A stretch of 49,886 nucleotides of DNA, from positions 6,075-55,960 of the forward strand of contig NZ_JADWYU010000247.1 in the NCBI RefSeq assembly GCF_016786325.1, read 5' to 3'. Both the position numbers and the translations under genes were made by a program. The notes under the pieces were generated by a model, which saw only the letters and a list, made by a program, of their open reading frames with translations, did no database searches and was not told the DNA's origin. The stretch comes from Frankia nepalensis. GTDB taxonomy: Bacteria > Actinomycetota > Actinomycetes > Frankiales > Frankiaceae. Of the stretch, positions 13,466 to 48,674 are shown in pieces (the first letter of the stretch is position 1; every line of letters starts with the position of its first letter).

Positions 13466-13491
13466 CACCCCTCCGTCGAACGCCGCAGCCG

Positions 13492-13525: not shown

Positions 13526-13544
13526 AGCCGCAGCCCCTACCCGA

Positions 13545-22280: not shown

Positions 22281-24536
22281 TCAGAGCTGCGTGGGGAGGA
22301 ACGGGCTGGCGTTGCCGTGGTAGGTGATGACGAGGGCGTCGCGGGCGCGGGTGGCGGCGACGAAGAGCAGGGAGCGGTCCTTCTTGCGCTCACGGTCGTA
22401 GCGGTGCGGGTCAGTGTCCTGGATGCGGTCGAGGAAACCGCGGGGGATGTAGCCCTGGCTGGCGGCGGCGATGATCAGCTGTCGGTATTCGAGGCCTTTG
22501 AAGCGATGCATCGTACCGACGTGGACGGCGTTCGCGCCCGCGCTGGCGGCCGGGCCGTCGGATCCGATCTCGACGGCTTCGACGCCGTCGGCCGTCAGGG
22601 TGGCGAGTACGTCAGCGGCCAAGGCACGGGTGGGAACGCAGACGGCGATCCGGCCACCGGTTTGGGTGACGGCGCCGGGCTGTGCGTCGCCGAGCCATGC
22701 CCGGACCTGGGCGCTGATCGTGCGCTGCTCGTCGTCCCAGGTGACGTGGGGGACGAGCTCGGGCTCACCGCCACTGAGCAGGCTGCGGTAGCCGGCGAGG
22801 TCCTCGGTGCCGTCGTCGAGGTTGTCGTAGCTCTCACCATGCAGGAGTTGGAGCGCGAGCTTCAGGATCTGGCGGGTAGTCCGATAGCTGAGCGTCAGCT
22901 TGTGGGAGCGGCCCCGGATGTTCACGCCCAGACTGCCGAGGCTGACGACGTTGTCGTAGATCCGCTGATGGGTGTCGCCAACGAGGAACATGTCGTTGAC
23001 ACTGGGTGCGACCATGGCGCGTAGCAGCTTCCAGTGCGCCGGGCTGAGATCCTGGGCCTCGTCGACGATCACATGCTGGTAGCGGTAGCGCGTGCCAGGA
23101 CCGGACTGCTCCGTCGCACTGTCGGAGGAAGCCGCCGTGGCTCGGTCAGCGCGGGCGATCTCTAGTTCGGCGGCGCGTTCGGCGACCTGCTGCCATGTCC
23201 ACACGTTCTGATCGGCAAGCCGCTTGGTGAACCGTTCGGTCAGCTGCCAGACCACGTCGCGGTCCTGGCGGGTGAGCTGCCGGCCGCGGCCTGGGCGCCG
23301 CGCCCGGAAGTAGTCGGCGCGGGAGCCCAGCACCTGTCCGAGGATGACCTGGGACCATTCGGCGGCGAGGAACTCGGCGGAGAAGCGGGTCTCGCCGAGT
23401 TCAAGGAGCATCGCCTTCCACTCACGGATCTCGGCCTCCTGGCCGATGGTGCTCCGCCGAGAGTCGTCGGCGTCGGACACAACCCGGGCGGCGAGACTGT
23501 CAATATTGACGATCTCGACGCGCGCGGTGTGTTCGGGACCGGCCAGCTCAAGCAGCCGGGTGCGCAGGTCGGCGGCGAGGTTGCGGTTGAACGTGGTGAG
23601 CAGAATCGGCCGACCGGTCGTTCCTGCCGGCAGGTCGATCGCCAGGTGCAGCGCCCGGTGCAGGGCGACGATCGTCTTGCCGGTTCCGGGGCCGCCGCTG
23701 ATCCGCGCCGGTCCGTTGTAGGTGTTGTCCGCGAGCTTGCGCTGGGTCGGGTGCAGGAAGACCTGCCACCGGGCGAACGACTCGGCGAGGATCGCGCGCA
23801 GCGCCTCGTCGTCGCTCGTCACCGGTGTCGACGGCCGGGCGACGGCGGCGGCGTAGTCGGTGGTGTCGACGGGTTCCGGCGCGGCGACCGGAGCGGTGAC
23901 GATCTCCATGACCTCGTCGACGGTCTTGCCGTCGTGGAGCGCCATGAGGACATCGGACGTCAGTTGCGGCACGCAGTCGACGAATTGGAGCAGCTGGTCC
24001 TCGGTGGTGAGCTTCCGGATCGACGGGAGCAACGGCTCCGCGACGCCGAGCTGCAGCAGCATGGCGTCGTCGACGTGCCGGAAGAGACCTCCACCCTGTT
24101 CCGGGATGGCCGGGTCGGCTGAGGTGAACCTGGGCGACGTCCCAGTCCGCGGTTCGGCTTTGCCAAGGACGCGGCCGACGACGCTGTCTCCTACGGCGGC
24201 CAGGTCGACGACCTCGATGCCGCCGGTCACCCGGTTGATCTCGTAGGCATAGCGGTCGAGGTCGTCGTACACCTCTTTGCGGTCCTTGACCGAGACCAGC
24301 AGATAGTCGCCGCCGCCGACGTGCAGCAGCAGCGCCCGGTGGTCGTGGCCGACACGGGCCGAGTAGAGGCGTGAGCCGCCCTTGAGCTGCTTGAACCGCA
24401 GTGAAGGGTGGTTAGGGTCCGCACGGAACTTCGACTGGAACTCGTAGACCGCGCCCTTCACGACCCGCGGGAGCTCGAGGATCTCCTTGTCAGCCCGGTC
24501 GAGGATCCGCAGGGTAACTCGGACCTGGGTATTCAC
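22281..24536 (-). CDS. RelE/ParE-like domain fused to UvrD-family superfamily I helicase
   Basis: In this 751-aa protein, residues 1-100 have the RelE/ParE toxin pattern: FQSKFRADPNHPSLRFKQLK, RLYSARVGHDHRALLLHV and LLVSVKDRKEVYDDLDRYAY. After a 150-residue linker come the helicase motifs: Q-motif-like LHPTQRKLAD, Walker A GGPGTGKT (281-288), Walker B VDEAQDLS (D492-E493), motif III-IV LVGDTHQRIY and SYRTTRQIL, motif V TMHRFKGLEYRQL and motif VI LLFVAATRARDAL. It is probably an ATP-dependent translocase; whether the RelE-like part cuts RNA or only binds is unknown. It is the last gene of the minus-strand defence operon and overlaps the previous gene by 4 bp. Confidence 0.85.
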   Translation of the reverse strand: MNTQVRVTLRILDRADKEILELPRVVKGAVYEFQSKFRADPNHPSLRFKQLKGGSRLYSARVGHDHRALLLHVGGGDYLLVSVKDRKEVYDDLDRYAYEINRVTGGIEVVDLAAVGDSVVGRVLGKAEPRTGTSPRFTSADPAIPEQGGGLFRHVDDAMLLQLGVAEPLLPSIRKLTTEDQLLQFVDCVPQLTSDVLMALHDGKTVDEVMEIVTAPVAAPEPVDTTDYAAAVARPSTPVTSDDEALRAILAESFARWQVFLHPTQRKLADNTYNGPARISGGPGTGKTIVALHRALHLAIDLPAGTTGRPILLTTFNRNLAADLRTRLLELAGPEHTARVEIVNIDSLAARVVSDADDSRRSTIGQEAEIREWKAMLLELGETRFSAEFLAAEWSQVILGQVLGSRADYFRARRPGRGRQLTRQDRDVVWQLTERFTKRLADQNVWTWQQVAERAAELEIARADRATAASSDSATEQSGPGTRYRYQHVIVDEAQDLSPAHWKLLRAMVAPSVNDMFLVGDTHQRIYDNVVSLGSLGVNIRGRSHKLTLSYRTTRQILKLALQLLHGESYDNLDDGTEDLAGYRSLLSGGEPELVPHVTWDDEQRTISAQVRAWLGDAQPGAVTQTGGRIAVCVPTRALAADVLATLTADGVEAVEIGSDGPAASAGANAVHVGTMHRFKGLEYRQLIIAAASQGYIPRGFLDRIQDTDPHRYDRERKKDRSLLFVAATRARDALVITYHGNASPFLPTQL

Positions 24537-27500
24537 CGTGTGCCTTCCTCTTCCTCGGCCAGGCTGGCTTCGCCGACGGTGCCGACATGGCTGTTGTCAG
24601 GGATGTCCGCCGGACGGGGCCGACGGACGGCGCCACGGCCGATTCGGGCGGCCAGGTCCGCGGCGGTCCAGCCGGTCGCCGGGCGGACGTCCCAGCCGGC
24701 CGCCCGGTAGGCGTCGTCCCGGTCGGCGGCCTCCTGGTCGGACCGGTCGACAGAGGCGAGCACGACACCGACCCGCGTGTCCGGCCAGGCCAGCTCCGCC
24801 TGCCAGGCACCGGCCCCCAGCTCGAATCCGACCTCGGGCACCGGAACGGCTCCGGCGGCGTCGGCGGCCAGGGCCTGGACAAGATCGGCGATGCCTGGTT
24901 CGTCGGGGTCGACCAGGGCAAGCACTTCCCGCCATACGGGGTCGGCGAGAGCGCCAGGCCTACTCGCGGACCGCGCGGGCGTCGTCGGGCGGCCGAGCCA
25001 GGTGGACGTCTCCTGGTCGAGCGCCCGCGCCGCTTGCGCCTCGTCGAAACCGCCTCCCTCGGCCGCGGCGAGCAGGGTCGGGTCGAAGTCGTCGAGGCCG
25101 GTGACGGTCAGCTGGACGGCGTCGCCGGCGCCGTCCGCGAGGAACTGGACCAGGTTCGTCCAGGCCAGCCATGACGCCCACCGGCGGCCATGGACCGACG
25201 TGATCCCGGCCGCGTCGAGCCCTCCCGGTGCCTGGCCGTGGGACTCGTGACCCGCTGTTCCACCAGCTTGTTCGCTCGCCGAGCCGACGGCCTCGTCCCG
25301 GTCGTCGACGACGACCAGCGCGGAGAACACCCGGTTCGCCACGCCGGCCCGGTCGTCGATCAGGGCAAGCACCGGGCAGCCGGCATCATCGTGCGCCCGC
25401 ACCACGGTGATCGCTCCGGTGGAACGTGCCAGCTGCCCGCCGCGCAGCCCGGCGACGATAGCCGCGGGAACACCGGGCGCGTCGACCTGTGTGCGCCGGA
25501 CGCCTGCGGTCGCGAGCAGACCGGCGACCGTCGCTTCGGCCCGCATCCGCCACTGGCCGCTGTCCGGGTCCGCGAGGAAGGCGAGGAGCTGGTCGACCGG
25601 GTTGACCCAGACGTACCGGTCGAGCTCGTCGGCCGGTCGCGAGGCTGTGAGGTGCCGGTACATGCGGTGTGCCAGCTGCTGGGCCTGGCCCTGGTAAGGA
25701 GCACGTGGCGGGGAGGGCGCGCCCGGCGTCCTGGTTCGCCACTCGTCGACGTCGTTCCAGGTGAGCTGGAAGACCCGCACCCCGTGGGCACGTAGCCGGG
25801 AACGTTTGTCGGCGTCGTCGGCGAGCCGGTTGTGCTCGGCGGAGGCGTGGTAGCGGAAGCCGTCGAGGTAGACGGCGACTTCCATGGGCGGGCCGTCGAG
25901 CCGGGCGAAATGCACATCGGGCCGGGTGCCGGCGATGGTGTGCTGCAGCCGCATCCGCCAGTGCGCGATCCCGCCGTCGGGCCCGGTGATCCGAAGTTCG
26001 GCGACCCGGACGCCGCCCGCGATGGTCGCGCTCGCGCTCAGCGTCCCGGGAGTGTCCGTTCGGGCGGCCCAGGTCCGCAGGCCGTTGAGGAACCGAGCCT
26101 CCAGCTCGCTTTCCACCAGATGGATCATCGATGCCTGGTCGGCGGGAGCGCTGTCAGCGACCTCCCAGCCATCGAGCAGTTCGCGCAGAACGGCGACGGC
26201 CTCGGCCCGCTGGATCTGGGCGAACTCGTCGCGGCGGGCGTAGCGCAGCAGGCAGCGAGGACAGCCGGGCCGGCCGGCGTCTACGCATGGGCAGGTCTCG
26301 ATCGCGTCCAGAGCGGCGGTCAGGACCTTGTGGAAACTGTCCGGGTCGGCGAGCCGGTGCAGGTAGCCGGTGCCGCCCGGCTGGCTGTCGTAGAGGACGA
26401 GGAACTGCCGGGTCGTGCCGGTCGCGCTGTCGGGCATGACCGTGGACGTGAGCCGCAGATGGTCGGGGCTGCCCCGGTACGCGCGGGAGATCCCAAGCCG
26501 CAGCGCCGCCGCGAAGGATGCCCGCCGGGTCGTGATCGACTGTGTCAGGGCGGGCACCAGGATGCGGATCGCCTCGGTGTGCAACTCGTCGGCGAGCAGC
26601 ACCGGCTGGTGGCGTGCCGACGTGGGGTTACGGCGGTGCCGGCAGTAGAGCCGGTGGTGCTCGTGGCCGCGCAGCCCGTCGCCGGACTCCGACCGCTCGC
26701 CGTTCACGGTCCCTGGGCCTTCAGCTATCTGGCCGAAGCCGGTGCCGCTGGCCGTGGTCGCGGGTGGGCCGTCCACCGCGGTGCCGCCGCAGTCGACGCA
26801 CACCTGGAACGGGTTGAGCGACACCGTGTCGCCGGCGAAGAGATCTGTCGGGTTCCGATCGGGCCGGGTCGCGCCGAGGTTGAACGTGCGGACGGCCGCG
26901 GGACGGGCATAGTCGACGCCGAACGTCGCTCCGGTGTGCCGCCAGGAGCGCAGGATCCGCGCCGGGTCGACGTCGACGGTGGTCAGGGTCGTGTAGAAAC
27001 GGCCCTCGCGGTCGTCGACCTCGTCGCGGATCCGGACATCCTCACGCCGGTCGATCGCGGTGACCCTGGTCGGGCGAAGCACGGTGAACTTCGAGCCGGA
27101 GTCGCCGATGCCGGTGTGCCGGCAGCGCTCGCACGGCCCGGTGTTGTCAACAAGGTGACCGTAGGACTCCTGCGGCCCGGCCGACGCGCCGGCGGCCAGC
27201 TCGGGCTGGGGGGTCCGCACGAAGCCACAGGCGGGGCAGATTCGCCACGTCTCCCAGGCGGGCTTCGTGCGCGGGCCGATATCGAGGCCGGTGACGCGGT
27301 GGGCGTAGCCGCGCACGTAGTACGTGTTCCCGGGAGCGATCTCGGTCAGGGCCTGGCGGACGGGGCGGTCGTACTCGCGGACCTCGCTGATGTACCGGCG
27401 CTCGCCGTTGGCGCTCTGCTCTTCCCAGGTGAGGGTGGCCTCCAGCGTCGTCGCGCCGTCGAACAACGCGTAGTTCGGCAGCAGCCCCAGGTCGACGAGG

Positions 27501-30500
27501 GTGCCGTGCGCCGACCGCCCGGTGATCTGGCCGGCGAGGCGGGCGAGCGCGCCCCGCTGCGCGGACAGGGCCCGGTAGTCGCGCCGCTGGTCGTCGTCGG
27601 ACTGCAGCAGACCGGCGCGGGCCAGGTCGATGGTGTCGAGCCGGCCGCGCAGGCCCGCGATCCGCTGCTCCCACGCCGCCACGGCCGCGTCGATGACGTC
27701 TCTGAGCCCGCCGACGGCGAACTCTCGCAACTCGGCGGCGGCGGTCGCGCTCAGCTGCGCGCCGCCCGCGCTGGCTTCGGTCGTGCCCCCAGTCCAGGGG
27801 ATGTCGTCGCCGGTCGCGGTACCGCTGTCGGTGCCGACGGCTGGCTCGTTCCCGGCAGGACTGTCGTCGGTGACGCCGAACAGGGCCAGGAAGTTCTCGA
27901 CTTCGGCCGCGCCGGTCTTCAGCGCGGCGAGGGTGAAGTCCGTGAGCCAGCTGTCGAGCCCGAACAGCGCTCCCGCCCGGCGCGGCAGCGGGCGGGCTCC
28001 GGGCAGGCGATCGCGGGCCGCGAGGTCGATCAGGTGGGCGAGGTACTGGCGGCGCAGGATCTCGATGGCCGACAGGTATGTGCCCGGCGGCGCGATCTCC
28101 CCGGCGATCATGTCGCGGGGCTCTGTCAGGTAGTACTGCTCCCGCTCGCCCCGGCCCAGCAGCGTAAGTACGAACGCGTTGCCGCTGGCCCGGCCCGCGC
28201 GGCCGGCGCGTTGGACGTAGTTCGCCGGTCCGGCGGGCAGCGACGCGAGTAGCACCGTCTCCAGTTCGCCGATGTCGATGCCCAGTTCGAGCGTCGGCGT
28301 ACAGGAGAGCACGTTCGGGTCGGTGTAATGGGCGCCGTCGCGGAACCTCCGCTCCACGGTCTCCCGCTGCTCCCGGGTGAGCAGGCCGGTGTGCTCGTCG
28401 GTGACGACCCGGAACGCGCCACTCTCCCGGTAGAGACGCCGGTAGTAGTCAGCGGAGGCCCGCGGCAGGACGGCGTGCCGCAGCGTGCCGGGGCAGCGGT
28501 AGCGGTGGCACGGCTGGCCGACCCAGTCGGCGATCCGTGCTGGTGGAACGGTCTGCGTCCACGCGCAGGCGTCGCAGCGTACGCCCGCGTCCCGTGCCTG
28601 CTCATCATCGAGGCCTAGGACGGTGATGTGCCCGGGCTGCAGGCCGTAGACGGTGATCCCCGAGGCCGGCGTCGCGCCCCGGCGGGGCTGGTGTGAGTTG
28701 CCGAGCGGGCGGACGATGACCCGCTGGGCGACCGCGCCCTCCTCGGCGAGCCGAGGCAGCAGGGCGCGCAGGTAGTCCGACGCGTGGTCGCGGCCCAGCC
28801 CGAGCGTGCGGGCCGTCCAGTCCTGGTACCAGTTGCCGGTGCTGGCCAGCAGGTCGAACTGGGTGCGTGGCCGGGATGCCGTCATGAGGAACGCCGGGGC
28901 CGCCAGGCTGCGGGGGAACGCGGGCATGCCGTTCGGCCGGCCACCCCAGATCCGGAAACGCCGGCCGCCTTCGGCCAGGTACTTGTCCAACCAATGGTGA
29001 TACACGGCGCCGCGGATCCGCAGCCGCTCCAGCAGGCCCCGCAGGTAGGCGTCGTAACGCGCGTCCGTCAGCTCGTCGGGTGACAGCGGCTGAACCTGGG
29101 TGCGCAGGAGGGTGTCGCGGGCTAGGCCGCGGATCCGCGCGGCGTCCCGCAGATCGACCTCGGCCGCGACCGAGCGGGTCAGCTCCAGCGTGCGGCCATT
29201 GCGGGACCGCAGGCCGAACTCGAGCACGGTGGCGAAACCGAGCCGGTCGGCCAGCAGCCGCCAGGTGGCGCGCCGGCCCCGTTCCCGGCCTGACAGCAGC
29301 GCGTCGACGCCTTCGACGTCGTGCAGTTCGGGCGGGACCAGGGCTGCCAGCGTTTCCGGGTCGGCGGCGTCGGCGATCAGGTCCGCGATCAGGTCGTTGA
29401 GCGCGACCGGCCGTCCGTCCGTCAGCTGGGCCGCGAGCAGCGCCCGAAGCGAGAACGTGAAGGCACGGGCCGCCACGAACCCGGCCCGGTGGGCCGCGTC
29501 CTGAACCGAGTCGTTGAACAGCAGGGTGTGGCGGGACTTCGGCGTCGGCAGCTCGCCGCCGGTGAACAGCTGGCTGATCGAGACGGACGCCAGCGCCGCG
29601 AGGCCGGCGCCCAGGTAGCGGATGCCCTGTTCCAGGCCGCAGGCAGGGCAGCGGTCCGCCTCCGCGCCGGCCTCGTCGGCGAACGCGCACAGCACCGCCA
29701 CGCCCGGCTGTTCGACCGCGGGGTCGTAGACATGTAGCGCGGTGCCCGCGGCGTCGAGGATCATCACCGGGTTCTCGGCCGGCGCGCCGCGTTCGTGCTC
29801 GGTCGCCTGGATCAGCGCCCGGACTCGCCGCTTCTCCCGGCCGACCCCGGCCCGGTAGATCTTGGTCGGATCGGTGACGAGCTCGTACGGATTGCGCTCT
29901 GGGGAGAGTGCCGCCCAGCCGGACCGGCCGCAGTGACGGCAGTACACGGCTGGCAGCAGCGGCTGCCCGCTGTCCGCGACCACCGAGGCCGCCGACACCG
30001 CCGCGCCGCCGGGCATGGCTGGGACCGTTGGGGCGTCGCCGTCGTCCATCGCGACCGTCGTCGCGAGGTCCAGCGCCGGCGTCGGCGCGGGACGCTGCTC
30101 GCCGTCCCACGCGAAGGCGGGATGTACGGCGACCGCGCGCAGCAGCCGGGAGACCGCCCGCACCCACAGGTGGGTCTCCACCGCGACGAGTGGGCGGCGC
30201 GGGTCGTCCGGGTCGCGGGCCGTCGAGAGCAGCGCGACGAACCGGGCCAGCGCCGCCGCCGCGACCTCCGGCTGGTTGGTCAGGGCCAGACCCCAGGCAC
30301 GCAGGTCCTCGCGGGGGAAACCTTCCAGTGCCTCATCGGCGGTCCGGGGCAGGTCGCCGAGCAGGCGCAGCACGGCACGCGTCAGCTTGTGCCGGCGTAG
30401 GAACGTGCCCAGCAGCGTCGGCGTCAGCGGCCCCTCGGCCGCCGGGCCGAGAACGGCGACAGCCAGGGGGCGCATCGCCGCCAGTTGGCGGGCACGAACA

Positions 30501-31537
30501 GCCTCGTCATCGGCGGGGCCGGCGAAGCCAAGGGCGGGACCATCGAAAGGCAGCGTGGCGAGAGCGGCCGGATCTGGGTCGGGTAGCGAGAGGTCCGGCT
30601 CCTGGAGCACCTCGCCTGGGGACAGCCGGTCCTCGCCGATCACCGAGGTCTCGTCGAACGGCGTTCCAAAGATCTCCTCGGCGACGGCGCGGATCGCCAG
30701 CACCGTGTCGTCCGCGAGCGCGCCCGAGCCGAGCGTCGCCGACGTCGCCACCGGGCAGACCGGGCCGAGCGGCCGGCCGGGCTGAGCCACGCCGATGACC
30801 GCGCCGAGGCGGCGCAGCAGCATCGCGACGTCGGTGCCCTGCGCGCCGTCGTAGGTGTGGAACTCGTCAAGAACAACGTAGGCCAGGCTGCTGTCCTGCC
30901 AGAGGGGGACGTCCTCTGAGCGCTGCAGCAGCTGGTCGAGCATCTTGTAGTTCGTGATCAGAATGTCGGGCGGGCTTCGGCGGATTGCCGCCCGGTCGGT
31001 CAGCACCCGGCGGTAGCCCTCCGCCGGGGTGTCCCCGATGTAGAGGCCGGCCGTGACGGCAGCCAAGTCCGGGTGCTCCAGGTAGGCGTTCAGACGGGCC
31101 GTCTGGTCGGAGGCCAGCGCGTTCATCGGGTAGAGCAACAGCGCCTTCACACCCGGACGGCCCACGGCGGCTTCACGGCGGCAGTGGTCCAGGATCGGTA
31201 CCAAGAACGCCTCGGTCTTGCCCGAACCGGTGCCCGTCGTGAGCACTGTCGGCTCGGCCGGGCCGTGCTTCGTCGACAGCCGCGCGAACGCCTTCGCCTG
31301 ATGCGCCCGCGGCGTCCAGTCTTCCGGCGCCCAGTCGACGTGCTCCCGCCAGCCGGCCTCGGCGTCGCGGAACGGCATCCGGACGCGGACATACGGACCG
31401 CGGTAAATCCCGTACTCCGGGTCGTCGAGAAACGCGGCCAGCGCCTCCTGCTCACCGGAGTCCGTCAGCGCGAACGTCGTCGTCAGATACTGCGTCAACG
31501 ACCGCCGCAGCCCCTCGGCGGCAATGGTGGGCCTCAT
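24533..31537 (-). CDS. Giant YprA/DruE-like DEAD-box helicase with DUF1998-like and Vsr-like nuclease regions
   Basis: In this 2334-aa protein, helicase motifs are Walker A TGTGSGKT (101-108), LLYPMNALASDQ, DEFH box (224-227, LDEFHTYDGAQGTD), VATSATLG, and far downstream TPTLELGIDIGELETVLLAS with QRAGRAGR near 1105. A DUF1998-type segment with a Cys cluster (CPCVDAGRPGCPRCLLRYAR near 1748) follows. Then a Vsr/DUF559-like fold near 1860-1930 (RPDVHFARL, MEVAVYLDGFRYHA, RSRLRAHGVRVFQLTWND). Further C4-type clusters (CPACG, CRHCG, CDACAW) suggest zinc fingers. Size and layout match DruE of Druantia or a DrmA-DrmB fusion of DISARM. Likely role: DNA translocation and cleavage of invading DNA. It is coupled by 4-bp overlaps at both ends. 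Confidence 0.88.
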   Translation of the reverse strand: MRPTIAAEGLRRSLTQYLTTTFALTDSGEQEALAAFLDDPEYGIYRGPYVRVRMPFRDAEAGWREHVDWAPEDWTPRAHQAKAFARLSTKHGPAEPTVLTTGTGSGKTEAFLVPILDHCRREAAVGRPGVKALLLYPMNALASDQTARLNAYLEHPDLAAVTAGLYIGDTPAEGYRRVLTDRAAIRRSPPDILITNYKMLDQLLQRSEDVPLWQDSSLAYVVLDEFHTYDGAQGTDVAMLLRRLGAVIGVAQPGRPLGPVCPVATSATLGSGALADDTVLAIRAVAEEIFGTPFDETSVIGEDRLSPGEVLQEPDLSLPDPDPAALATLPFDGPALGFAGPADDEAVRARQLAAMRPLAVAVLGPAAEGPLTPTLLGTFLRRHKLTRAVLRLLGDLPRTADEALEGFPREDLRAWGLALTNQPEVAAAALARFVALLSTARDPDDPRRPLVAVETHLWVRAVSRLLRAVAVHPAFAWDGEQRPAPTPALDLATTVAMDDGDAPTVPAMPGGAAVSAASVVADSGQPLLPAVYCRHCGRSGWAALSPERNPYELVTDPTKIYRAGVGREKRRVRALIQATEHERGAPAENPVMILDAAGTALHVYDPAVEQPGVAVLCAFADEAGAEADRCPACGLEQGIRYLGAGLAALASVSISQLFTGGELPTPKSRHTLLFNDSVQDAAHRAGFVAARAFTFSLRALLAAQLTDGRPVALNDLIADLIADAADPETLAALVPPELHDVEGVDALLSGRERGRRATWRLLADRLGFATVLEFGLRSRNGRTLELTRSVAAEVDLRDAARIRGLARDTLLRTQVQPLSPDELTDARYDAYLRGLLERLRIRGAVYHHWLDKYLAEGGRRFRIWGGRPNGMPAFPRSLAAPAFLMTASRPRTQFDLLASTGNWYQDWTARTLGLGRDHASDYLRALLPRLAEEGAVAQRVIVRPLGNSHQPRRGATPASGITVYGLQPGHITVLGLDDEQARDAGVRCDACAWTQTVPPARIADWVGQPCHRYRCPGTLRHAVLPRASADYYRRLYRESGAFRVVTDEHTGLLTREQRETVERRFRDGAHYTDPNVLSCTPTLELGIDIGELETVLLASLPAGPANYVQRAGRAGRASGNAFVLTLLGRGEREQYYLTEPRDMIAGEIAPPGTYLSAIEILRRQYLAHLIDLAARDRLPGARPLPRRAGALFGLDSWLTDFTLAALKTGAAEVENFLALFGVTDDSPAGNEPAVGTDSGTATGDDIPWTGGTTEASAGGAQLSATAAAELREFAVGGLRDVIDAAVAAWEQRIAGLRGRLDTIDLARAGLLQSDDDQRRDYRALSAQRGALARLAGQITGRSAHGTLVDLGLLPNYALFDGATTLEATLTWEEQSANGERRYISEVREYDRPVRQALTEIAPGNTYYVRGYAHRVTGLDIGPRTKPAWETWRICPACGFVRTPQPELAAGASAGPQESYGHLVDNTGPCERCRHTGIGDSGSKFTVLRPTRVTAIDRREDVRIRDEVDDREGRFYTTLTTVDVDPARILRSWRHTGATFGVDYARPAAVRTFNLGATRPDRNPTDLFAGDTVSLNPFQVCVDCGGTAVDGPPATTASGTGFGQIAEGPGTVNGERSESGDGLRGHEHHRLYCRHRRNPTSARHQPVLLADELHTEAIRILVPALTQSITTRRASFAAALRLGISRAYRGSPDHLRLTSTVMPDSATGTTRQFLVLYDSQPGGTGYLHRLADPDSFHKVLTAALDAIETCPCVDAGRPGCPRCLLRYARRDEFAQIQRAEAVAVLRELLDGWEVADSAPADQASMIHLVESELEARFLNGLRTWAARTDTPGTLSASATIAGGVRVAELRITGPDGGIAHWRMRLQHTIAGTRPDVHFARLDGPPMEVAVYLDGFRYHASAEHNRLADDADKRSRLRAHGVRVFQLTWNDVDEWRTRTPGAPSPPRAPYQGQAQQLAHRMYRHLTASRPADELDRYVWVNPVDQLLAFLADPDSGQWRMRAEATVAGLLATAGVRRTQVDAPGVPAAIVAGLRGGQLARSTGAITVVRAHDDAGCPVLALIDDRAGVANRVFSALVVVDDRDEAVGSASEQAGGTAGHESHGQAPGGLDAAGITSVHGRRWASWLAWTNLVQFLADGAGDAVQLTVTGLDDFDPTLLAAAEGGGFDEAQAARALDQETSTWLGRPTTPARSASRPGALADPVWREVLALVDPDEPGIADLVQALAADAAGAVPVPEVGFELGAGAWQAELAWPDTRVGVVLASVDRSDQEAADRDDAYRAAGWDVRPATGWTAADLAARIGRGAVRRPRPADIPDNSHVGTVGEASLAEEEEGTR

Positions 31538-40010: not shown

Positions 40011-40120
40011 GAATTACCTCTCTCGGGAAGGCCAGGGGCCTGCGACGGCTGCGAGCCGTCCGGACCGGGCCGTCGAACTGTTCACGCGGGGCATCACCTG
40101 GCTGCGCGACGGAGCGCCTG

Positions 40121-41395
40121 TCACAACGGCGCGTCCCGCGCATAGGCGGCGCGCAGCTCGTCCACGAGCCAGCCGACCTGCAAGGGGCGCGACGTGCGTG
40201 CCGGTGGAGGCGCCGTGGTCCTCGGCCGGCCCGCCAGCGCGGGCAGCAGGTCTGGCGGGATCAGCGGCGGGCCGGTGACCGTGGTCGCCTCCGGGTCGAA
40301 CGGCGCCGACTCCGCCGCTGACCGCGGCGGCAAGCTGTCCCCGGCGACATCCGGCCCGTGGCCTTGGGCTGGGATGCCCAGCGATGACGAGACGTCGAGA
40401 ACCGTCGGTTCGGGCACCGTGTCGTTGGCGACGCCGCGTACCGGGCCGGGCACGTCATCGTCCTCGTCCGGTCTGGCGGTCAGGCCGTCCGTGGCCGAGA
40501 CGTCCAGCGTCACCGGGACCGGGGCGGCGTAGGTGGTGACGACGAGTTGTCGGCGCATCCCGCTGATCGATCCGGCCGCGTCGACGACGGCGAGCAGCTT
40601 GCGCTGTACCTCTCGAACGGTGGGCCGTCGCGCCGGGTCGTGGACGACCATGCCGGCGAGCAGGTCGGTCAGCTCTTCCGGCACACCCGACAGATCCGGC
40701 TCGACGGCGGGGTCGGTGATCTCCCTGATGAGCGCGGGAATGGTCCGGGGCTGGTAGAGGGTGTGCGCGGTCGCGGCGTAGACCAGCGTCGCGCCGAGCG
40801 CGTAGACGTCGGCCGCCGTCGTGATGGCGGTACCGCCGGTTGCCTGCTCCGGCGGCAGGTAGGCCGGGGTGCCGATGATGGCGCCGGAGGCCGTGTTCTG
40901 CCCCGCCTGGCCCTCGAGGACCGCGAGCCCGAAGTCGATGACCTTCGGGCCGTCCGGGCCGAGCATGACGTTGTGTGGTTTGAGGTCGCGGTGCAGCAGC
41001 CCGACGCGGTGCAGCTTGTCGAGCGCATCGGTCAGCGTCATCCCAAGGACCGCGACCAGCACGCCCGCCAGCGGGCCGTCCTGCTCGACGTGCTCGCGCA
41101 GCGTCTGGCCGGGCACGTACTCGAAGGCGAGCCACGGCGGGTCGTCGTCCATCCCGTCGGCCTCGAACCGCGCGTTGCGCGACCCGTAGACCAGCCGCAA
41201 CGTCTGGATCTCCTCGGTGAACCGCCGCCGGATGTCATCCCCGCCGAGCAACTCAGGCTTGATCACCTTGAGTGCGACGTGTTCCCCGGTCGCTGACCGG
41301 GCGAGGTACACCCGCCCCATTCCGCCAGCGCCTAGCCGCGCCACCAGCCGGTACCCGCCGATCATGCTCGGGTCTGAGGGCAGCAGCGACTCCAC
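40121..41395 (-). CDS. Soluble Hanks-type Ser/Thr protein kinase
   Basis: This 424-aa protein has GAGGMGRVY (22-30), catalytic Lys43 (VALKVIKP), HRDLKPHN (135-142), DFG (154-156) and GTPAYLPPEQA, so the kinase should be active. It lacks PASTA repeats and a transmembrane helix; the C-terminal 130 residues are Pro-rich and disordered-looking and end in WLVDELRAAYARDAPL. GTG 41395 follows GAGGGGGG. The gene heads the minus-strand operon, 110 bases before the DrmD-like helicase gene, and diverges from the PglW-like kinase gene. It likely phosphorylates island proteins as a switch, but a host function is possible. Confidence 0.85.
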   Translation of the reverse strand: MESLLPSDPSMIGGYRLVARLGAGGMGRVYLARSATGEHVALKVIKPELLGGDDIRRRFTEEIQTLRLVYGSRNARFEADGMDDDPPWLAFEYVPGQTLREHVEQDGPLAGVLVAVLGMTLTDALDKLHRVGLLHRDLKPHNVMLGPDGPKVIDFGLAVLEGQAGQNTASGAIIGTPAYLPPEQATGGTAITTAADVYALGATLVYAATAHTLYQPRTIPALIREITDPAVEPDLSGVPEELTDLLAGMVVHDPARRPTVREVQRKLLAVVDAAGSISGMRRQLVVTTYAAPVPVTLDVSATDGLTARPDEDDDVPGPVRGVANDTVPEPTVLDVSSSLGIPAQGHGPDVAGDSLPPRSAAESAPFDPEATTVTGPPLIPPDLLPALAGRPRTTAPPPARTSRPLQVGWLVDELRAAYARDAPL

Positions 41396-41680
41396 CCATG
41401 CCCCCCTCGGCCACGCCAGGTAGCAACCGCATACCTGGTCGGAGCATTGGAGTCTTCCATATGATCGTATTGATGCCTAGACGGGCCAGATGTGCACCTA
41501 GCGACGTCCTAGGGGTTCCCGCGTGCAGCACAACGTGATAGCCACGTTGCGTCGTCTCGCTCCCATGGATACGGGTGCGCCGCTAGGTGTGTCGACCGGT
41601 AGCTTGCGCCAACCACATCGAATGGTGTGAGACGCAGAGGCCGGCGTCGGGGCAGCGGACAGCGAAGAGCGGGGGAGACG
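41396..41680. promoter_or_regulatory. Divergent promoter region of the two kinase operons
   Basis: This 285-base region must carry promoters for both defence operons. It includes a locally AT-richer patch (CATATGATCGTAT near 41460), three CCTAG motifs at 41476, 41497 and 41508 (spacing 21 and 11 bases, close to whole helical turns), and the inverted repeat at 41531-41549. CTAG is normally scarce in high-GC genomes. Shared control of the two operons is inferred. Confidence 0.5.
41531..41549. promoter_or_regulatory. 19-bp inverted repeat between the divergent operons
   Basis: CAACGTGATAGCCACGTTG has perfect 7-bp arms (CAACGTG/CACGTTG) and a 5-bp centre. It lies 136 bases upstream of the minus-strand kinase start and 132 bases upstream of the plus-strand start, almost exactly midway. 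It looks like the site of a dimeric repressor. No regulator gene lies beside it. Confidence 0.55.
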
Positions 41681-44600
41681 GTGGCGGACGTTGTTCGTCT
41701 CTGCGAGTGGGGCGGTCCTGGTGAGGAGGCGACCGCGATCTACCTGCGGGACCACCTTCCGGCCAGCTGGACGGTCGTCTGTGGCCGGCAGATCGTGAGC
41801 GGCACGAAGACCCGTGATTCGGACTTCATCGCCGTCGGGCCGAGCAGCGTCATCCTCATCGAGGAGAAGTCCTGGCACGGCCAGCTCAGCGGCACCGAGG
41901 AGCGCTGGTACGACCGGAAGACCCGCAAAGTGCTGGGCAGCCCGGTCAGCCAGGTCAACGGAGTTGCCCGCCTGCTCGCTGGTCGCCTCGAGAAGGTGGT
42001 CCCCGCCAAGGGGCGCCCCGGTGTACACCTCGTCCGACACTTGGTGGTGCTCTCATCGTCGGACGTGCAGTACGACATCGCCGACTCGCGGGTCGCCGAC
42101 CAGGTCGTCCGCCTCGTCGGCTGTGAGCGCAAGCTGCTTGAGATCGACAAGACCATGCGCACGCAGTTCGACCTGGCTCCGTTTCGTGCCCAGATCCTCG
42201 CGCTGGTCACGGGCCTGCCGGACCGGCCGGCCCGCCCGGCCATGCTCGGCGACTACACGATCGTCGAAGAGCTCGACGCGACACCGCGCGGGCCCCGATA
42301 CGTGGGAATGCACCGCGACGGCAGCGCGCGGATCCTGCTGACCTATCTGCGCCGGGGACTGTCGGAGAAGGAGCTCGCCGCCAGCGACCAGGAGGTCCTG
42401 CGCGAGTACCACGCGATGCGCAAACTCGCCCCGACCGGCGTCGTGTTCCGGGTCGACCCGTACTTCGGCGTGGATGACGACCAGATGTGGGTCGCGCCGA
42501 TGGGCTTCCCGCCGCCGGAGCTGCGCAACCTGCGGGAGAAGGTAGTCGGCGGCGAGCGGCCGACGGCGGCGGTCTTCACCGAGGTCGCGGCCCATGCGTA
42601 CGAAGCGCTGGCTGCCGTGCACGACGCGGAGATCGTGCATCGCGCGCTGCACCCAAGCAGGATCTTCATCCCGGAGACCCACAACCAGGTGACCTTCTCC
42701 GACTTCCTGCTGGCGAAGTTCACCGGCCACAACGTCACGATCACCGACGTCGACGAGATCGACGACCTCGGTCGCCCGTTCCGGGCACCCGAATGCCGCG
42801 CCTCGGCGCACGCCGCGACCGAGCGGTCTGACATCTATTCCCTGGCCCTGTGCCTGCTTGCCTGGCTTCGTCTGGACAAGGCGGACCCGGACGGGATTCC
42901 GCCCATCCCCGCGGCCCTGCCGGACCCGGTTCGCGCGGTGCTGGCCGATTGCCTCCGGCCGAACCCGTCCGGCCGGCCGACGGCCCACGAGGCCGCCGAG
43001 GCCTTCGCCGGCTACCTGCGCCAGGAGCGGCGACGGCCGGTCCGCCCCACCGCCGGGGCGAAAGTCGACAAGTACGAGCTTGTCGAGGCGCTGGGCGCCG
43101 GGGCGAGTGCGACCACCTGGTTGATGATCGACCGGCGGATGGACATCCGGCACACGCTGAAGATCATGCATGCGGCGGGGACGCAGGACAGGCTGGCCAC
43201 CGAGCTGAAGAACCTCCACAAGCTCAAGCACGACCGGATCGTGCGAGCGACCGACTACCTGCTGCAGCCCTTCGGCCCGGCGCTGATCGCCGAGTACGTG
43301 GCGGGGCAGACGGTCAAGAAGCTTGCCCCGACGCTGCGTGGCAACGCGGGCGCCTGCCTGAAGATTTTGCACGACATGCTTGATGCCCTCGAGTACGTGC
43401 ACCAGCGGGGTGTGGTGCACCGGGATGTCTCGCCGAACAACATCATCGTTGATGCGGACGACCGGGCGACTCTGATCGACTTCGGTGTGGCTTCCGACGC
43501 CGCCGATCGCAGCATCGTCGGAACGCTGCCGTACCAGGCGCCGGAGATCGCCGCCGGCAAAGCCTGGACGGCCGCGGCTGACCTCTACTCCCTCGCTGTC
43601 GTCTGCTTCGAAGCGCTGACCGGTCGCCTGCCCTACAGCGACGACGGCCGCTCCCAGGACAAGTACACCCTCGTCCGGCCCACAAACGACGAGATCGCGG
43701 CCGCCGGCGGGCTGGCGCTGCTCGAGGTCCTGCTGCATGGCGCCAGCGACAGCGCCGAGACGAGGTTCGGCTCAGCCGCGGCGTTCCGCGACGCGCTCAC
43801 CCACAGCCTCGCGCAGGAGGCCGCCGCGCCGGTCACGCTGCCTGACGATGCTGCGCATACTCCCGAGTTCCAGCGGCCTGTCGGCCCGGAGACGGCGCCT
43901 GCCCTGCGTATCAACCCGACCGTCGACGACATCCGCCAGCTTTTCCGCAACAGCCGGCTCGGCAACAGCGGCAACCGGGGGCTCGACTCGCCGTTCGCCG
44001 ACCAGACCTACGTCACCACCAGGCTCGACGACCAGCTCGCCCCGAGGATCATCGGCGGCCGGCCCCGGCTCGTCGTCTTCAGCGGCAACCCGGGCGATGG
44101 CAAGACGGCGTTCCTCGAGCGTCTGAGCGGCACTCTGCTCGCCAAGGGCGCGATCGAGCAGGCCCGCGACGCCGCCGGCTGGCGGATCGCGTTGGCTGGC
44201 CACGAGTTCGCATCCGTCTACGACGCCAGTGAGTCCCACGAGGGACTTTCCGCGGACGAGCTGCTGCGCCGGGCTCTCGACCCGCTGACCGACCCGGCCA
44301 GGGCCGACCGGTACACCGCGCTGATCGCGGCGAATGATGGGCGCATCCTCGACTTCCTCGAACGCGAGGCGGCCCGGTACCCCGAGATCGCCGCCCTGCT
44401 CAGCGGCGGTGCCGGCGCGGCCGCCGAGCAGGCAGGTGTCCTCCGGATCGACCTGAAGAACCGGTCCATGGCCTCGGCCGGCCCCGCGGCCGGTTCGCTG
44501 ACCGTCCGGATGCTCGACGCCCTCCTCGACACCGAGCTGTGGTCCACCTGCGCGGGCTGCCTCGCCGAGCCGCGCTGCCCGATCGCGCGCAACGTCACCG

Positions 44601-45505
44601 AGTTGCGCGACGCTCAGGTGAAGGACCGGCTGCACCGCCTCGTCCTCACCTCGCACCTGCGCCGTGGCCGCCGTCCCACGATCCGCGACCTACGCTCCGC
44701 GATCGCCTACCTGGTGACGGCCGACGTCGGCTGCGGCGACGTCCACCGGGAGTTCGAGGCTGGCGAGCTCAGTCTGGCCACGCCAGACCGGCATTTCAGC
44801 GCCTCAGTGTTCGACGATGTGGGCGGGCACGACCGCCTTCTCGGCGAGTGGCGCCTCCTGGACCCGGGCAGGGTCGCCGCCCCGCGGGCGGAGCGCCTGC
44901 TCGCTCCGCAGGCGCGTACCGCCGACGCGATGAGCCGCGCGAAGCGCCACTTCTATTTCACCGCCCCGGCCGAACAGCTCGCCGCCGTCGGCCACCTTGG
45001 CCCGTACCGCCATCTCGACACGTTCACCGCGATCCTCGCCGGCGGGCCGACCGACGCGGCGCTCGAACCGCTGTTGCGCGGGCTGTCCCGCTGCATTGGC
45101 CCGGTCGGCTACGACGGCGCGGGGGTAGCCGTCTCCGTCGGCGAGCCCGCGGAAGACGGCGGAGCGGTCGTGAAGATCCTGCCCGCCACGGAGTTCCGGA
45201 TCGAGACACGCCCGCCCGACGACAGCTACGTCGAGGCCACGGCCGACGCGTTCACTCTTCGCCACAGTGGCGGCCAGGCGGCGCTGACCGTCGACATCGA
45301 CCTGTTCGAGCTGCTCATGCGGGCCGCCGCCGGCTACCTGCCGACCAACGCCGAGGCGACGCCGCTGCTCGAGGAGCTGGGACTGTTCCGCTCACGCCTG
45401 ACCCTCCAACGGGCGCAGAAGGTCATCGTCATTGAGCCGAACGGCCGGCGTAACGCCATCGACAAGACGGGCACGACGATCGAGCTGCTGGGAGCCGAGC
45501 GATGA
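41681..45505 (+). CDS. PglW/MAD6-like protein: NERD nuclease, pseudokinase, kinase, P-loop ATPase
   Basis: GTG 41681 is preferred (GGGGGAG upstream); GTG 41627 would add 18 Arg-rich residues. In the 1274-aa product, residues 1-130 are a NERD nuclease domain (D48 in DSDFIAVGP, E61-x-K63 in LIEEKSWHG). Residues 190-420 are a kinase fold that has lost catalytic residues: HRALHPSRIF for HRDxxxxN and SDFLL for DFG, so a pseudokinase. Residues 463-680 are an intact kinase (LGAGASATTW, TLKIM, HRDVSPNN, IDFGVAS, GTLPYQAPE). From 780 there is a P-loop ATPase-like region (GNPGDGKT 802-809) with a CAGCLAEPRCP cluster. Family: PglW of Pgl/BREX type 2 and the MADS kinase. It starts a three-gene operon with 4-bp overlaps. 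Confidence 0.88.
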   Translation: MADVVRLCEWGGPGEEATAIYLRDHLPASWTVVCGRQIVSGTKTRDSDFIAVGPSSVILIEEKSWHGQLSGTEERWYDRKTRKVLGSPVSQVNGVARLLAGRLEKVVPAKGRPGVHLVRHLVVLSSSDVQYDIADSRVADQVVRLVGCERKLLEIDKTMRTQFDLAPFRAQILALVTGLPDRPARPAMLGDYTIVEELDATPRGPRYVGMHRDGSARILLTYLRRGLSEKELAASDQEVLREYHAMRKLAPTGVVFRVDPYFGVDDDQMWVAPMGFPPPELRNLREKVVGGERPTAAVFTEVAAHAYEALAAVHDAEIVHRALHPSRIFIPETHNQVTFSDFLLAKFTGHNVTITDVDEIDDLGRPFRAPECRASAHAATERSDIYSLALCLLAWLRLDKADPDGIPPIPAALPDPVRAVLADCLRPNPSGRPTAHEAAEAFAGYLRQERRRPVRPTAGAKVDKYELVEALGAGASATTWLMIDRRMDIRHTLKIMHAAGTQDRLATELKNLHKLKHDRIVRATDYLLQPFGPALIAEYVAGQTVKKLAPTLRGNAGACLKILHDMLDALEYVHQRGVVHRDVSPNNIIVDADDRATLIDFGVASDAADRSIVGTLPYQAPEIAAGKAWTAAADLYSLAVVCFEALTGRLPYSDDGRSQDKYTLVRPTNDEIAAAGGLALLEVLLHGASDSAETRFGSAAAFRDALTHSLAQEAAAPVTLPDDAAHTPEFQRPVGPETAPALRINPTVDDIRQLFRNSRLGNSGNRGLDSPFADQTYVTTRLDDQLAPRIIGGRPRLVVFSGNPGDGKTAFLERLSGTLLAKGAIEQARDAAGWRIALAGHEFASVYDASESHEGLSADELLRRALDPLTDPARADRYTALIAANDGRILDFLEREAARYPEIAALLSGGAGAAAEQAGVLRIDLKNRSMASAGPAAGSLTVRMLDALLDTELWSTCAGCLAEPRCPIARNVTELRDAQVKDRLHRLVLTSHLRRGRRPTIRDLRSAIAYLVTADVGCGDVHREFEAGELSLATPDRHFSASVFDDVGGHDRLLGEWRLLDPGRVAAPRAERLLAPQARTADAMSRAKRHFYFTAPAEQLAAVGHLGPYRHLDTFTAILAGGPTDAALEPLLRGLSRCIGPVGYDGAGVAVSVGEPAEDGGAVVKILPATEFRIETRPPDDSYVEATADAFTLRHSGGQAALTVDIDLFELLMRAAAGYLPTNAEATPLLEELGLFRSRLTLQRAQKVIVIEPNGRRNAIDKTGTTIELLGAER

Positions 45506-47157
45506 AGCTCTACCCGCCAAAGGACCTGCGCTCGTACTCGTTCGAGAAGCTATCCGGCTACGAGCTCAACGACTTCGATGTCGACCGCTTCCTGCCGGTG
45601 CTCTTCCAGCTCGTCGTCACCCGAGGCTGGGGCCTGGGCCGGTCGGACGCGCAGCCCACCGAGGCCGCCCGCTACATCGAGGAGCTCGCGCGTCATCCGA
45701 GCATGCGCGGCTTCGACAACGAGCACGGCCGCGCGGTGCTCGAGCAGTGGGTCAACACGACGGTGGTCCGGCTCGGCTACGAGGGCCGGGGCCGGCGCGA
45801 GATCCAGCTCGCCGCGGTGCAGCCGATCCACATCGGCGCCTACCGGGCCGGCCTGCCGGTCGAGGGCACCCGGCATCGCAAGGTCCATCTGGTCGTCCAC
45901 CGGCTGCTGCGCGACGCATTGGAGCGGCGCGGTCACCAGAACCCGGCCGAGGCGTTGCGCGAGCTGTTCCTTCACGCCTTCGGCGATGGTGTGACGATCT
46001 CCCACGAGGGCGTCCCCGCGTTCGACGGCACGACCGCCACTCTCGACGCGAACGTCCTGCTCTCTCTGTACTACCTCGAGGCTTTCAGTGCCGGCCGGCC
46101 CCTGAAGGTGTCCAGGCGCCCGCTTGACTGGGACCCAGTCATGCCAGGGGTGATGGTCGACCTCGGCGACCAGCTGCTCGACTTCCTGTCCGTCTATCAG
46201 CGTGGGCTGCCCACGATCGCGCTGGCCCACCACCTGGCGGCGCTGGTGAACCTGGGTCTGTTCACCACGTCGTTGCGGCTGTTTCACCTGGTCAACGACG
46301 TGACCCGCGGCGGGAGTGACCCCGCCGACTTGGCCGCGGACCTCCCCACCGCGCAGACCGAGATCTATGTCGACTTCACCCGGCAGCTCGGCGGCGACTC
46401 CGACCGGCTAGCCGGCGAATGCGTCGACCGCGACCTGGAGCGCCTGCCCACCTATCTCGAGGGCATGCTGCTGCTCAAGACCCTCGACCGTTACGGGCGC
46501 AACGAGGCACGGCTCCGGCACTACATCGAGCACAAGACCGGCCCGGACTGGCTGCGGGGGCTGCTAGCGATGCGTGCCGATCCGCTCGTCGAGCTGCGCG
46601 CCGGCTTCGAGCTGGAGCAGATCGTCACGGAGACCGCCAAGTACAACGACTGCACCGCCGACGAGGCCCGCGCGGAGATCGAACGAGCGACGCCCAGCGA
46701 CGGGCAGCTCGACCAGGTGGTGGCGGCGATCCGCGAGTCGCAGAAGGCAAACGCGATGAAGAGCGCCCGGGCGTGGTTCTGGAACACCGGGGGAATGCGC
46801 AAGCAGGCCGGCCTGCTACGCGGCAATCAGCGTGGCAAGCAGGCCTGGCGCTACGCGATGACCGACGAGCTGCTCACCACCCTGCTGCTGAGCACCCTCG
46901 TCGACCGCGACACCGGCGAGGCGCTGCCGAGGATGCGGCTCGGGACTCTGCTGGAGAGGTTCGAGGCCGACTGGGGGCTGCTGATCGCCCGGCCGCCCGC
47001 GGGATACGCGGACGCGGCGTCCCGGGCGGTCGCGTCCGCGAACCTCACCGCCTTCACCGGCCGACTGCGTCAGATGGGTTTCTTCTCCGATCTCTCGGAC
47101 GACTTCAACGCCCAGTACGTGACTAATCCGCTGATCGCGGCCGGAGCACACCGATGA
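45502..47157 (+). CDS. Unknown protein in the kinase operon (551 aa)
   Basis: ATG 45502 overlaps the kinase stop (ATGA). The protein is soluble and mostly helical, starting MKLYPPKDLRSYSFEKLSGY, with AQTEIYVDFTRQLGGD near 290 and RGNQRGKQAWRYAMTDELL near 440, the latter resembling a winged-helix segment. No catalytic motif was recognised. By position (kinase, then this, then the next large gene) it corresponds to the accessory protein between the PglW-like kinase and an ATPase in MADS-like loci (mad7 position), but this is inference from gene order. Overlaps at both ends show it belongs to the unit. Confidence 0.75.
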   Translation: MKLYPPKDLRSYSFEKLSGYELNDFDVDRFLPVLFQLVVTRGWGLGRSDAQPTEAARYIEELARHPSMRGFDNEHGRAVLEQWVNTTVVRLGYEGRGRREIQLAAVQPIHIGAYRAGLPVEGTRHRKVHLVVHRLLRDALERRGHQNPAEALRELFLHAFGDGVTISHEGVPAFDGTTATLDANVLLSLYYLEAFSAGRPLKVSRRPLDWDPVMPGVMVDLGDQLLDFLSVYQRGLPTIALAHHLAALVNLGLFTTSLRLFHLVNDVTRGGSDPADLAADLPTAQTEIYVDFTRQLGGDSDRLAGECVDRDLERLPTYLEGMLLLKTLDRYGRNEARLRHYIEHKTGPDWLRGLLAMRADPLVELRAGFELEQIVTETAKYNDCTADEARAEIERATPSDGQLDQVVAAIRESQKANAMKSARAWFWNTGGMRKQAGLLRGNQRGKQAWRYAMTDELLTTLLLSTLVDRDTGEALPRMRLGTLLERFEADWGLLIARPPAGYADAASRAVASANLTAFTGRLRQMGFFSDLSDDFNAQYVTNPLIAAGAHR

Positions 47158-48674
47158 CCAATCTCAGCCCCGCGCTGGCCGCCAGGGTCGCCGCCCTGCT
47201 GGTGCGCGACTTCCTCCGCACGGCCACCGCGGGCCGCTGCCTGCGTCTTGACCACCTGTACGAGAGCGATTGCCATGGCATCCGCGACGTGGCCCGGGCC
47301 CAGCTGCCGGCCTCGTCAAGCGGCGCCGTACCTGTCCAGATCGCCGTGCTGGGGGCCGAGAACCGGGCCGACGACACGGTGATCTCGCCGGAGCGGGCCA
47401 TCGAGCTGCGCAACCGCAAGGCGTCGGCGCTGCTGCTGCTGGTCCCCGCCGGAGCTGACAGCCCGACCGCGAGCAGCCTGGAGAACTCGTTTGAGTCCAT
47501 CGATCTCGAACTGATCCTCCGAGCGATCCTGCGCGACCTCGTCGGCCACCTCCCGCGCGCGCAGCGCGAGCTGTACGACCAGGTGCTGGCGGCCCAGTCG
47601 GGCAGGCCGCGGGTCTTTCCCCTCTCCAAATAGGCACGCGCCGAGTACGTACTCGCCCTCGCCGCGGCCGCGGAGGCGGAGGCGGACGGTGAGGCCGAGC
47701 AGGTGCCGCGGGCCGCTGGAATGAACCTGCATCTGCTAGGCCTGATCCCCGACCTGGGTGGCGCGTCGTTCATCGACCGCCTCGCCGACAACGCGGCGTG
47801 CGTCGCGGCGCTGGTCAAGCCGGGCCGTTCCCAGGACGACGCCAGCACGCGGCTGCGGAGCTGCCCGCTGCGGCAGGACGACGCCGCCGCCTACCGGGCG
47901 ATCGAGCGGTTCGTCGTGGCCGTGCCGCGGCTTTCCGACCGAGCCTGGCTGCGAACGCTCGCCGACCCGCGCCACCGCGCGCTGACCTTCGAGCGCTGGC
48001 CGCTCAATCCTTCGACGGACAGCGACCTGCTCTCGCTGTATGTTGACCCGTTCGCGGTCAACGGCATCATCCCCGCCTCCACCGGACTGCGCGACTCGCG
48101 GGACGGGACGCTGCCGTCCTGCTCGGCGAAGGGTGGCTTCATCAAGGTCACTTGGACGACCGAACCGGGCCGGCCGAAGGAAGTCGCCAAGTGGAACGTC
48201 GAGATACTCCCGTCCGAGGACTACTACGGCCCAGAGACCGACTTCGACGTTGACCTGCCACATAAGTCCCCGAAGGGGACGTTGCGGGCGTGCAAGCTCA
48301 CCATCAACCTTGACTCGGAGGACGTCGAGCGGGCTCCCAAGACGGTCGTGGTTCGTATACAAGCCCTGGACCGGAACGGCCAGGTGCTCCGGCTCGCCGA
48401 CGGCGAGCTCGCTCAGGCAACTAGCCAGGAATTCCTTCTTGACGCCACCCCACCGTCGGAAAGCACGACAGTGCGCCGGGAGAGCGCGTCGTCCCTGCCG
48501 ATCGCCCGCCTGCGGGCGGTACTAGCCGGCGCCGAGGCGGAGACTGAGTCCAGCGAGGGCTGGCAGGAATCAGATCTGGCCTACCTCCAACTGCGGTTCA
48601 GTCGTAGCCATGCCAGCCGGCTCGCGCTAAGCATCCCGTTGCGTGAGCTGGAGGCGCGGAATCCGTCAACATGA
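47154..48674 (+). pseudogene. Broken third gene of the kinase operon (in-frame TAG, IS3 insertion)
   Basis: ATG 47154 overlaps the previous stop. The frame reads 159 codons (MTNLSPALAARVAALLVRDF onward; ALLLLVPAGADSP and ENSFESIDLELILRAILRDL are DptH/ATPase N-terminus-like) to a TAG at 47631-47633. The same frame then continues for 346 more codons without a stop (AEYVLALAAAAEAEADG, MNLHLLGLIPDLGGASFIDR, SDTDLL-like and beta-rich segments) until it runs into the IS3 end at about 48672. The C-terminal ATPase part expected for such proteins would lie beyond the IS element. The gene is probably inactivated twice; reinitiation at GTG 47703 is possible. Similarity to DptH or MAD8 is tentative. Confidence 0.75.

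Follow-up and report, generated by a model that had tools for sequence, protein, structure and literature searches.

Why is a large defence operon of Frankia nepalensis preceded by a gene for a Hanks-type protein kinase, and does this kinase belong to the machine that the operon encodes? The question is raised by a 49,886-nucleotide stretch of DNA (hereafter the window; NCBI RefSeq assembly GCF_016786325.1, contig NZ_JADWYU010000247.1, positions 6075 to 55960, where the contig also ends) from a genome of 10.7 Mb in 398 contigs. Our analysis identified the minus-strand genes between positions 22281 and 40010 of the window as an ARMADA type II operon, and the kinase gene upstream of them (K1, 40121-41395, minus strand) as a lineage-specific companion of ARMADA in actinobacteria that probably docks on, and gates, the ArmD protein. 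An earlier reading of the DNA sequence alone (the original prediction) had described a composite island with DISARM- and Druantia-like parts and two flanking kinases; every reading frame that it named was found in place.

An ARMADA type II operon forms the core of the island

ARMADA type II has been described as four genes, armA, armB, armC and armD, in strict order within one operon (Bell et al., 2025, preprint, PMC12458937; here and below we refer to the main text of that preprint). Its ArmC is a YprA-type helicase with a zinc-binding DUF1998-like region and a C-terminal Vsr-type nuclease, and its ArmD is a GajB-like UvrD helicase with an N-terminal RelE-like domain (PMC12458937). In the window, the minus-strand frames at 36909-40010 (armA), 31534-36912 (armB), 24533-31537 (armC) and 22281-24536 (armD) lie in the published order, and neighbouring frames share 4 nucleotides each, as a single operon. 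The tightly coupled minus-strand operon of the original prediction therefore stands for the four arm genes but not for K1, which lies on the same strand 110 nucleotides upstream of armA, with no overlap.

Apart from the C-terminal region of ArmC, which is taken up below, the domain content of the four proteins is likewise that of ARMADA type II. ArmA (1033 amino acids) is an SNF2/BrxHII/DrmD-like helicase with SNF2-rel_dom and Helicase_C domains (Pfam) and the Walker motifs VGLGKT and DESH. ArmB (1792 amino acids) is a PglX/type IIG-like DNA methyltransferase of the Eco57I type (Pfam), with NPPW at residue 1165 and a score of 940 bits against the PADLOC type IIG model, compared with only 150 bits against the best DrmMI model. 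ArmC (2334 amino acids) is a giant YprA/DruE-like helicase in which DEAD, Helicase_C and the MrfA zinc-binding domain (MZB) were detected, and ArmD (751 amino acids) matches Pfam UvrD at 79.5 bits and has GajB models among its PADLOC matches.

Two other defence systems share parts with this core. ArmA scores highest against the DrmD models of DISARM class 1 (PADLOC; 252-265 bits over all DrmD models), and the best PADLOC model for ArmC is DruE3 of Druantia III (284 bits). However, the NCBIfam DrmD score (265 bits) falls short of its cut-off (610), and no DrmA, DrmB or DrmC was found among the nine window proteins scanned (PADLOC, NCBIfam), so that membership in DISARM class 1 was rejected. Druantia III was rejected in the same way, because the DruE-like protein is accompanied by no DruH among these nine proteins. 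Hence the original prediction was sound in seeing a defence island that resembles ARMADA, and the resemblance extends to the order and domains of the core. The RelE-UvrD fusion, which it placed outside any system that it could name, is the regular armD gene of ARMADA type II (PMC12458937), and the four-gene core matches an already defined subtype, an outcome that it had itself named as speaking against its composite view.

The RelE/ParE-like domain occupies approximately residues 1-115 of ArmD (24192-24536, minus strand). Pfam ParE_like matches the N-terminus at 20.1 bits, below its cut-off of 24.4; a profile built from 36 ArmD N-termini (N-terminal 126 residues) matched in the PDB the toxin-like protein 2khe best (E 4e-4); two YoeB chains came next (E 9e-4 and 1e-3), and RelE3 (E 0.04) and RelE (E 0.2) ranked further below. 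The AlphaFold model of ArmD (mean pLDDT 78.9) matched UvrD in a fold search (E 1e-20); the list of 50 fold matches contains no RelE. Judged from these profiles, ArmD is a RelE-like domain joined to a UvrD helicase, as in ARMADA type II.

The last 540 residues of ArmC model well (pLDDT 84.8). Within the protein, residues 1804-1938 (25724-26128, minus strand) are conserved in an alignment and contain the motifs RPDV and EVAVYLDGFRYHA, which we take to be Vsr-like. The C-terminal region gave no Pfam match, no PDB sequence match and no fold match at E 0.001. Residues 1804-1938 are possibly a Vsr-type nuclease, a name taken from the published description (PMC12458937) together with this motif.

Decayed forms of the system were also seen. 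Truncated or decayed ARMADA loci without armA exist (L309 and L310), and the genome that carries the window has a collapsed second armC (G000, contig C381; locus L247, 9449-11977), a single 842-amino-acid frame made of three separate ArmC stretches (residues 60-310, 1150-1245 and 1796-2159) at 57-63 percent identity, with no other arm gene match within its 19-kb stretch.

A kinase gene precedes armA in actinobacterial ARMADA loci

The window departs from ARMADA type II as described in the main text of the preprint in that, here and in related actinobacterial loci, a Hanks kinase gene lies before armA and often another one after armD. To determine how general this arrangement is, we analyzed 79 loci with ArmD relatives (the best 80 of 171 were kept); within the family itself, ArmD-like matches were present in 24 of 35 genomes. 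The armA loci were counted as distinct loci with an armA match above 300 bits whose upstream DNA was fetched, some plasmid loci included. In 47 of these 52 loci the gene immediately preceding armA encodes a kinase and points the same way, at a distance of -14 to 277 nucleotides; 46 of them come from 43 genomes and one from a Streptomyces plasmid, not counting L188, which duplicates L118.

This kinase is not just any of the many kinases of these bacteria, of which the window genome alone has 85 domain matches. With the window kinase as query, a match abutting armA was found in all 42 genomes searched, and it was the best match of the genome in 38 of them. The distances among K1 proteins follow those among ArmA proteins (r 0.88, reached in 0 of 5000 permutations, vertical descent not being controlled for). 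We conclude that K1 belongs with ARMADA in actinobacteria, as a lineage-specific element.

Domain build and relationships of K1

K1 (424 amino acids; Pkinase 123 bits) consists of a kinase domain, a gap-rich variable linker and a conserved end of the type LADELRxAYA; no sensor domain was found, only kinase domain, linker and tail. The residues K43, HRD/D137, N142 and D154-G156 of the kinase domain are kept in 48 of 48 K1 sequences; K1 is a soluble, active-looking Hanks kinase. The tail comprises the last 20 residues (40124-40183, minus strand) and ends in ..WLVDELRAAYARDAPL. Its pattern occurs in 47 of the 48 K1 sequences, a count that holds by construction, as the pattern was fitted by eye to K1 tails; only its absence from 62 other kinases, of which 53 are complete at the C-terminus, and from 30 kinases of the second type described below amounts to a test of specificity, with no match in either set.

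A tree built from 143 kinase domains places 49 of the 50 K1 sequences in one group (support 0.977). A kinase of this clade was also seen at locus L229 (7131-11252), where it is fused to other domains in a 1373-amino-acid frame that has no relation to ARMADA and whose C-terminus looks, by eye, like a LuxR-type helix-turn-helix.

Kinase genes beside armD, with and without the other arm genes

A second type of kinase, K2, is encoded directly downstream of armD in 30 of the 79 loci. The 28 K2 sequences that were long enough group with three K2-like kinases in one clade (31 of 31, support 1.0), and K2-type kinases in several loci have TPR repeats. The window has no K2. The ORF downstream of its armD (21381-22235, 284 amino acids) was considered as a K2 remnant and rejected, as it has no K2 match at E 1e-3 and no Pfam match; nor did it match anything in the fetched relatives apart from the window's own record. 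That many relatives have two kinases is a coincidence with regard to the two-kinase picture of the original prediction.

The association of kinase and ArmD extends to loci that lack the rest of the system. A search for armA in 46 genomes left four with ArmD but no armA match (G046, G047, G051 and G065). Among the loci without armA, L081 encodes K1 and ArmD fused in one 1045-amino-acid frame, with a linker in place of the tail, and K2-like kinase genes abut armD in L059 and L065. The kinases encoded upstream of armD in L058 and L059 end in the terminal domain of ArmC (residues 2219-2300; 24638-24883 in the window, minus strand), which hmmsearch detected at 83.4 and 92.2 bits, respectively. Two further loci, L061 and L299 (L300 is L061 again and was not counted), encode an N6 methylase, K1 with its tail, ArmD and K2, with no armA, armB or armC within the fetched stretch. 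Together with L081 they make three loci in which methylase, K1, ArmD and K2 are retained while armA, armB and armC are absent.

Of the 20 divergent ArmD-like loci within the family, 6 contain an adjoining, co-directional kinase gene (L250, L251, L261, L262, L263 and L265); in L250, L251 and L263 an N6 methylase gene precedes the kinase gene, and in L251 a gene for a PLD-domain protein precedes that of the methylase. It should be noted that the combination in L250, L251 and L263 of an N6 methylase, a TPR kinase and a RelE/UvrD-like protein, with no ARMADA helicase, is a candidate defence system in its own right. In L301 and L302, armC is followed by two tandem armD genes with a kinase gene between them.

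How K1 may act on ArmD

Because the kinase-ArmD pair persists without the rest of ARMADA and is twice tied by fusion, we consider it likely that the island is an ARMADA II anti-phage system extended by a lineage-specific kinase that is tethered to ArmD and gates it. This model builds on the gene order, the conserved adjacency of K1 and armA, the K1 clade, the catalytic residues, the tail, two types of fusion, and the loci with K1, ArmD and K2 but no armA, armB or armC; physical docking, ArmD as the substrate, the sign of the effect and an anti-phage function of this island are what we infer from them. The tail would dock the kinase onto an ArmD-containing assembly, and K1 would phosphorylate ArmD or its immediate partner. 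Phosphorylation may restrain the RelE-type RNase and the helicase for as long as no phage DNA is engaged, and in many relatives K2 may add a second input. The silencing of a toxin by a kinase is known elsewhere. Since no antitoxin gene is visible and K1 lacks a sensor domain, we lean slightly towards restraint by K1 rather than activation.

Several observations weigh against this model. The five armA loci without K1 belong to divergent lineages: no K1 lies upstream of armA in L126 (Frankiaceae), L223 (E. coli), L225 (Tsukamurella) and L227 (Pseudanabaena), and in L228 (Microvirga) the record begins 436 nucleotides before armA, so that the presence of a kinase gene cannot be judged there. In 4 of 42 genomes (G060, G062, G077 and G080) another kinase outscores the one adjacent to armA; in L168 the adjacent kinase falls outside the K1 clade and has no tail, and the non-ARMADA kinase of L229 falls inside it. 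The K2-like kinase gene of L058 lies approximately 1.9 kb from armD, and no kinase gene adjoins the ArmD-like gene in 14 of the 20 divergent loci. The 79 loci, being drawn as the best-scoring relatives, are not independent of each other, and the correlation of K1 and ArmA distances is uncorrected for common descent. Finally, the four genes of an E. coli ARMADA II protect with no kinase, each of the four being required (PMC12458937), so that K1 is dispensable for ARMADA as such.

A broader proposal on the origin of the pair, which we put forward tentatively and hold to be somewhat less than even in its prospects, is that kinase and RelE/UvrD protein, with or without a second kinase, form a mobile phospho-gated toxin-helicase module. 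Such a module would also occur alone beside an N6 methylase (in one examined locus together with a PLD-domain protein) and would have been recruited into ARMADA; the tail of K1 would be an antitoxin-like segment or a tether on ArmD, dispensable once the two proteins are fused.

As to the sign of the effect, kinases act as activators in some abortive-infection systems. K1 could accordingly be a switch that senses infection and turns the system on by phosphorylating ArmD or another Arm protein. The anatomy of the locus would be identical under activation and restraint, so that the data leave the sign unfixed, and the TPR repeats of K2-type kinases in several loci could be sensor-like. We nevertheless regard an activating K1 as rather unlikely, given that no sensor domain was found in K1 itself and that a RelE-type domain with no visible antitoxin gene would seem to need restraint.

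It is also conceivable, but improbable, that K1 is a mere transcriptional or housekeeping regulator in a slot where other ARMADA operons have other regulators. On a Haematobacter plasmid, a gene annotated with a WYL domain occupies the place directly upstream of an armA-like gene, and the 110 nucleotides between K1 and armA in the window would suit such a role. A function at the promoter level does not predict, however, that K1 remains with ArmD where armA, armB and armC are missing, in one locus even fused to it, or that the tail is conserved across K1 and absent from 62 other kinases.

The divergent operon is a damaged MADS fragment

MADS is a methylation-associated defence system. Beyond a 231-nucleotide intergenic region (41396-41626), the plus-strand frames 41627-45505, 45502-47157 and 47154-47633 run divergently from K1, with 4-nucleotide overlaps between neighbours. 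The first encodes a MAD6-like protein of 1292 amino acids, with NERD, pseudokinase-like and kinase domains, that scores 529 bits against NCBIfam MADS6 (cut-off 460), and the second encodes MAD7 (551 amino acids; NCBIfam MADS7, 458 bits, cut-off 410). With its NERD and kinase domains the MAD6-like protein resembles PglW of BREX type 2, and the original prediction had taken the operon for a PglW-like kinase module; this membership was rejected, as the score with the PglW model was 159 bits and its cut-off is 990.

The third frame encodes 159 amino acids that match NCBIfam MADS8 at 35.6 bits (cut-off 175). After these 159 codons it meets an in-frame TAG (codon 160) and then stays open until 48674, so that the ORF at 47703-48674, previously read as a gene of its own, is the continuation of the same frame. 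The whole remnant (47154-48674, plus strand) has approximately 500 codons, against 1841 and 1893 in two relatives, whose frames it matches weakly but co-linearly in tblastn (24 percent, E 7e-4). Both relatives belong to the same class; there, mad2 and mad5, which pass their cut-offs, come before mad6 and mad7, and the frames of 1893 and 1841 amino acids come after them. These long frames are MAD8 to judge by their position and, for one, by a fragment at 72.6 bits (cut-off 175). In two actinobacterial genomes, the MADS loci L181-L184 contain mad2, mad5, mad6 and mad7 and end in a long gene of HerA-like type. In the window, the mad8 remnant is followed by a transposase gene with an rve integrase core (48697-49818, minus strand; Pfam 84.4 bits), close to the contig end.

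An intact MADS was rejected on account of this low MAD8 score, the in-frame stop and the shortened frame, and because the best MAD2 match in the whole genome reached 99.3 bits against a cut-off of 720 (of MAD1 to MAD5, the genome-wide search covered MAD2). A survey of ARMADA genomes that started from 50 of the 79 ArmD-relative loci found MAD7 in 2 of 48 genomes, both times on contigs other than that of armA. Given this result, mad6, mad7 and mad8 are a damaged MADS fragment that neighbours ARMADA and is no part of its machine. Consequently, of the two flanking kinases that the original prediction joined to the core, K1 belongs there and the MAD6 kinase does not. That ARMADA and mad6-mad7-mad8 form one composite system, as their divergent operons 231 nucleotides apart and the kinase and NERD nuclease domains of MAD6 might suggest, is hardly credible in view of the MAD7 survey, the presence of MAD7 (NF047733) in 3 of 396 genomes of the phylum with the window's own among them, the position of mad6-7-8 behind mad2 and mad5 in two relatives, and the damage to mad8 in the window.

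Two other features of the window were recorded. A class I lanthipeptide-like cluster occupies 7953-13591 on the minus strand, with genes in a row for a full-length lantibiotic dehydratase (10406-13591), a LanC-like cyclase (9213-11333) and a PCMT-type methyltransferase (7953-9152), and a Transposase_31/YhgA-like (Rpn-type) protein with a DUF4351 match below cut-off is encoded beside the defence operon (18560-19510).

Implications

The four-gene core was already known as ARMADA II, and the new element is its partnership with kinases. We found no link of a kinase to ARMADA or to RelE-UvrD proteins in the open-licence papers of PMC, and the words 'kinase' and 'phosphoryl' do not occur in the main text of the ARMADA preprint (PMC12458937). 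For genome annotation, the PglW-like gene next to such an operon is a warning, as here it is MADS debris and no partner. The kinase-methylase-RelE/UvrD operons that have no other Arm genes are, for their part, candidates for a defence system. If the proposed model holds, K1 would be a control layer outside the main text that first described ARMADA II, and actinobacterial ARMADA II would be run by one or two dedicated kinases coupled to ArmD, which would offer a testable handle on the role of the RelE-UvrD subunit and on what protects the host from its RNase-like domain.

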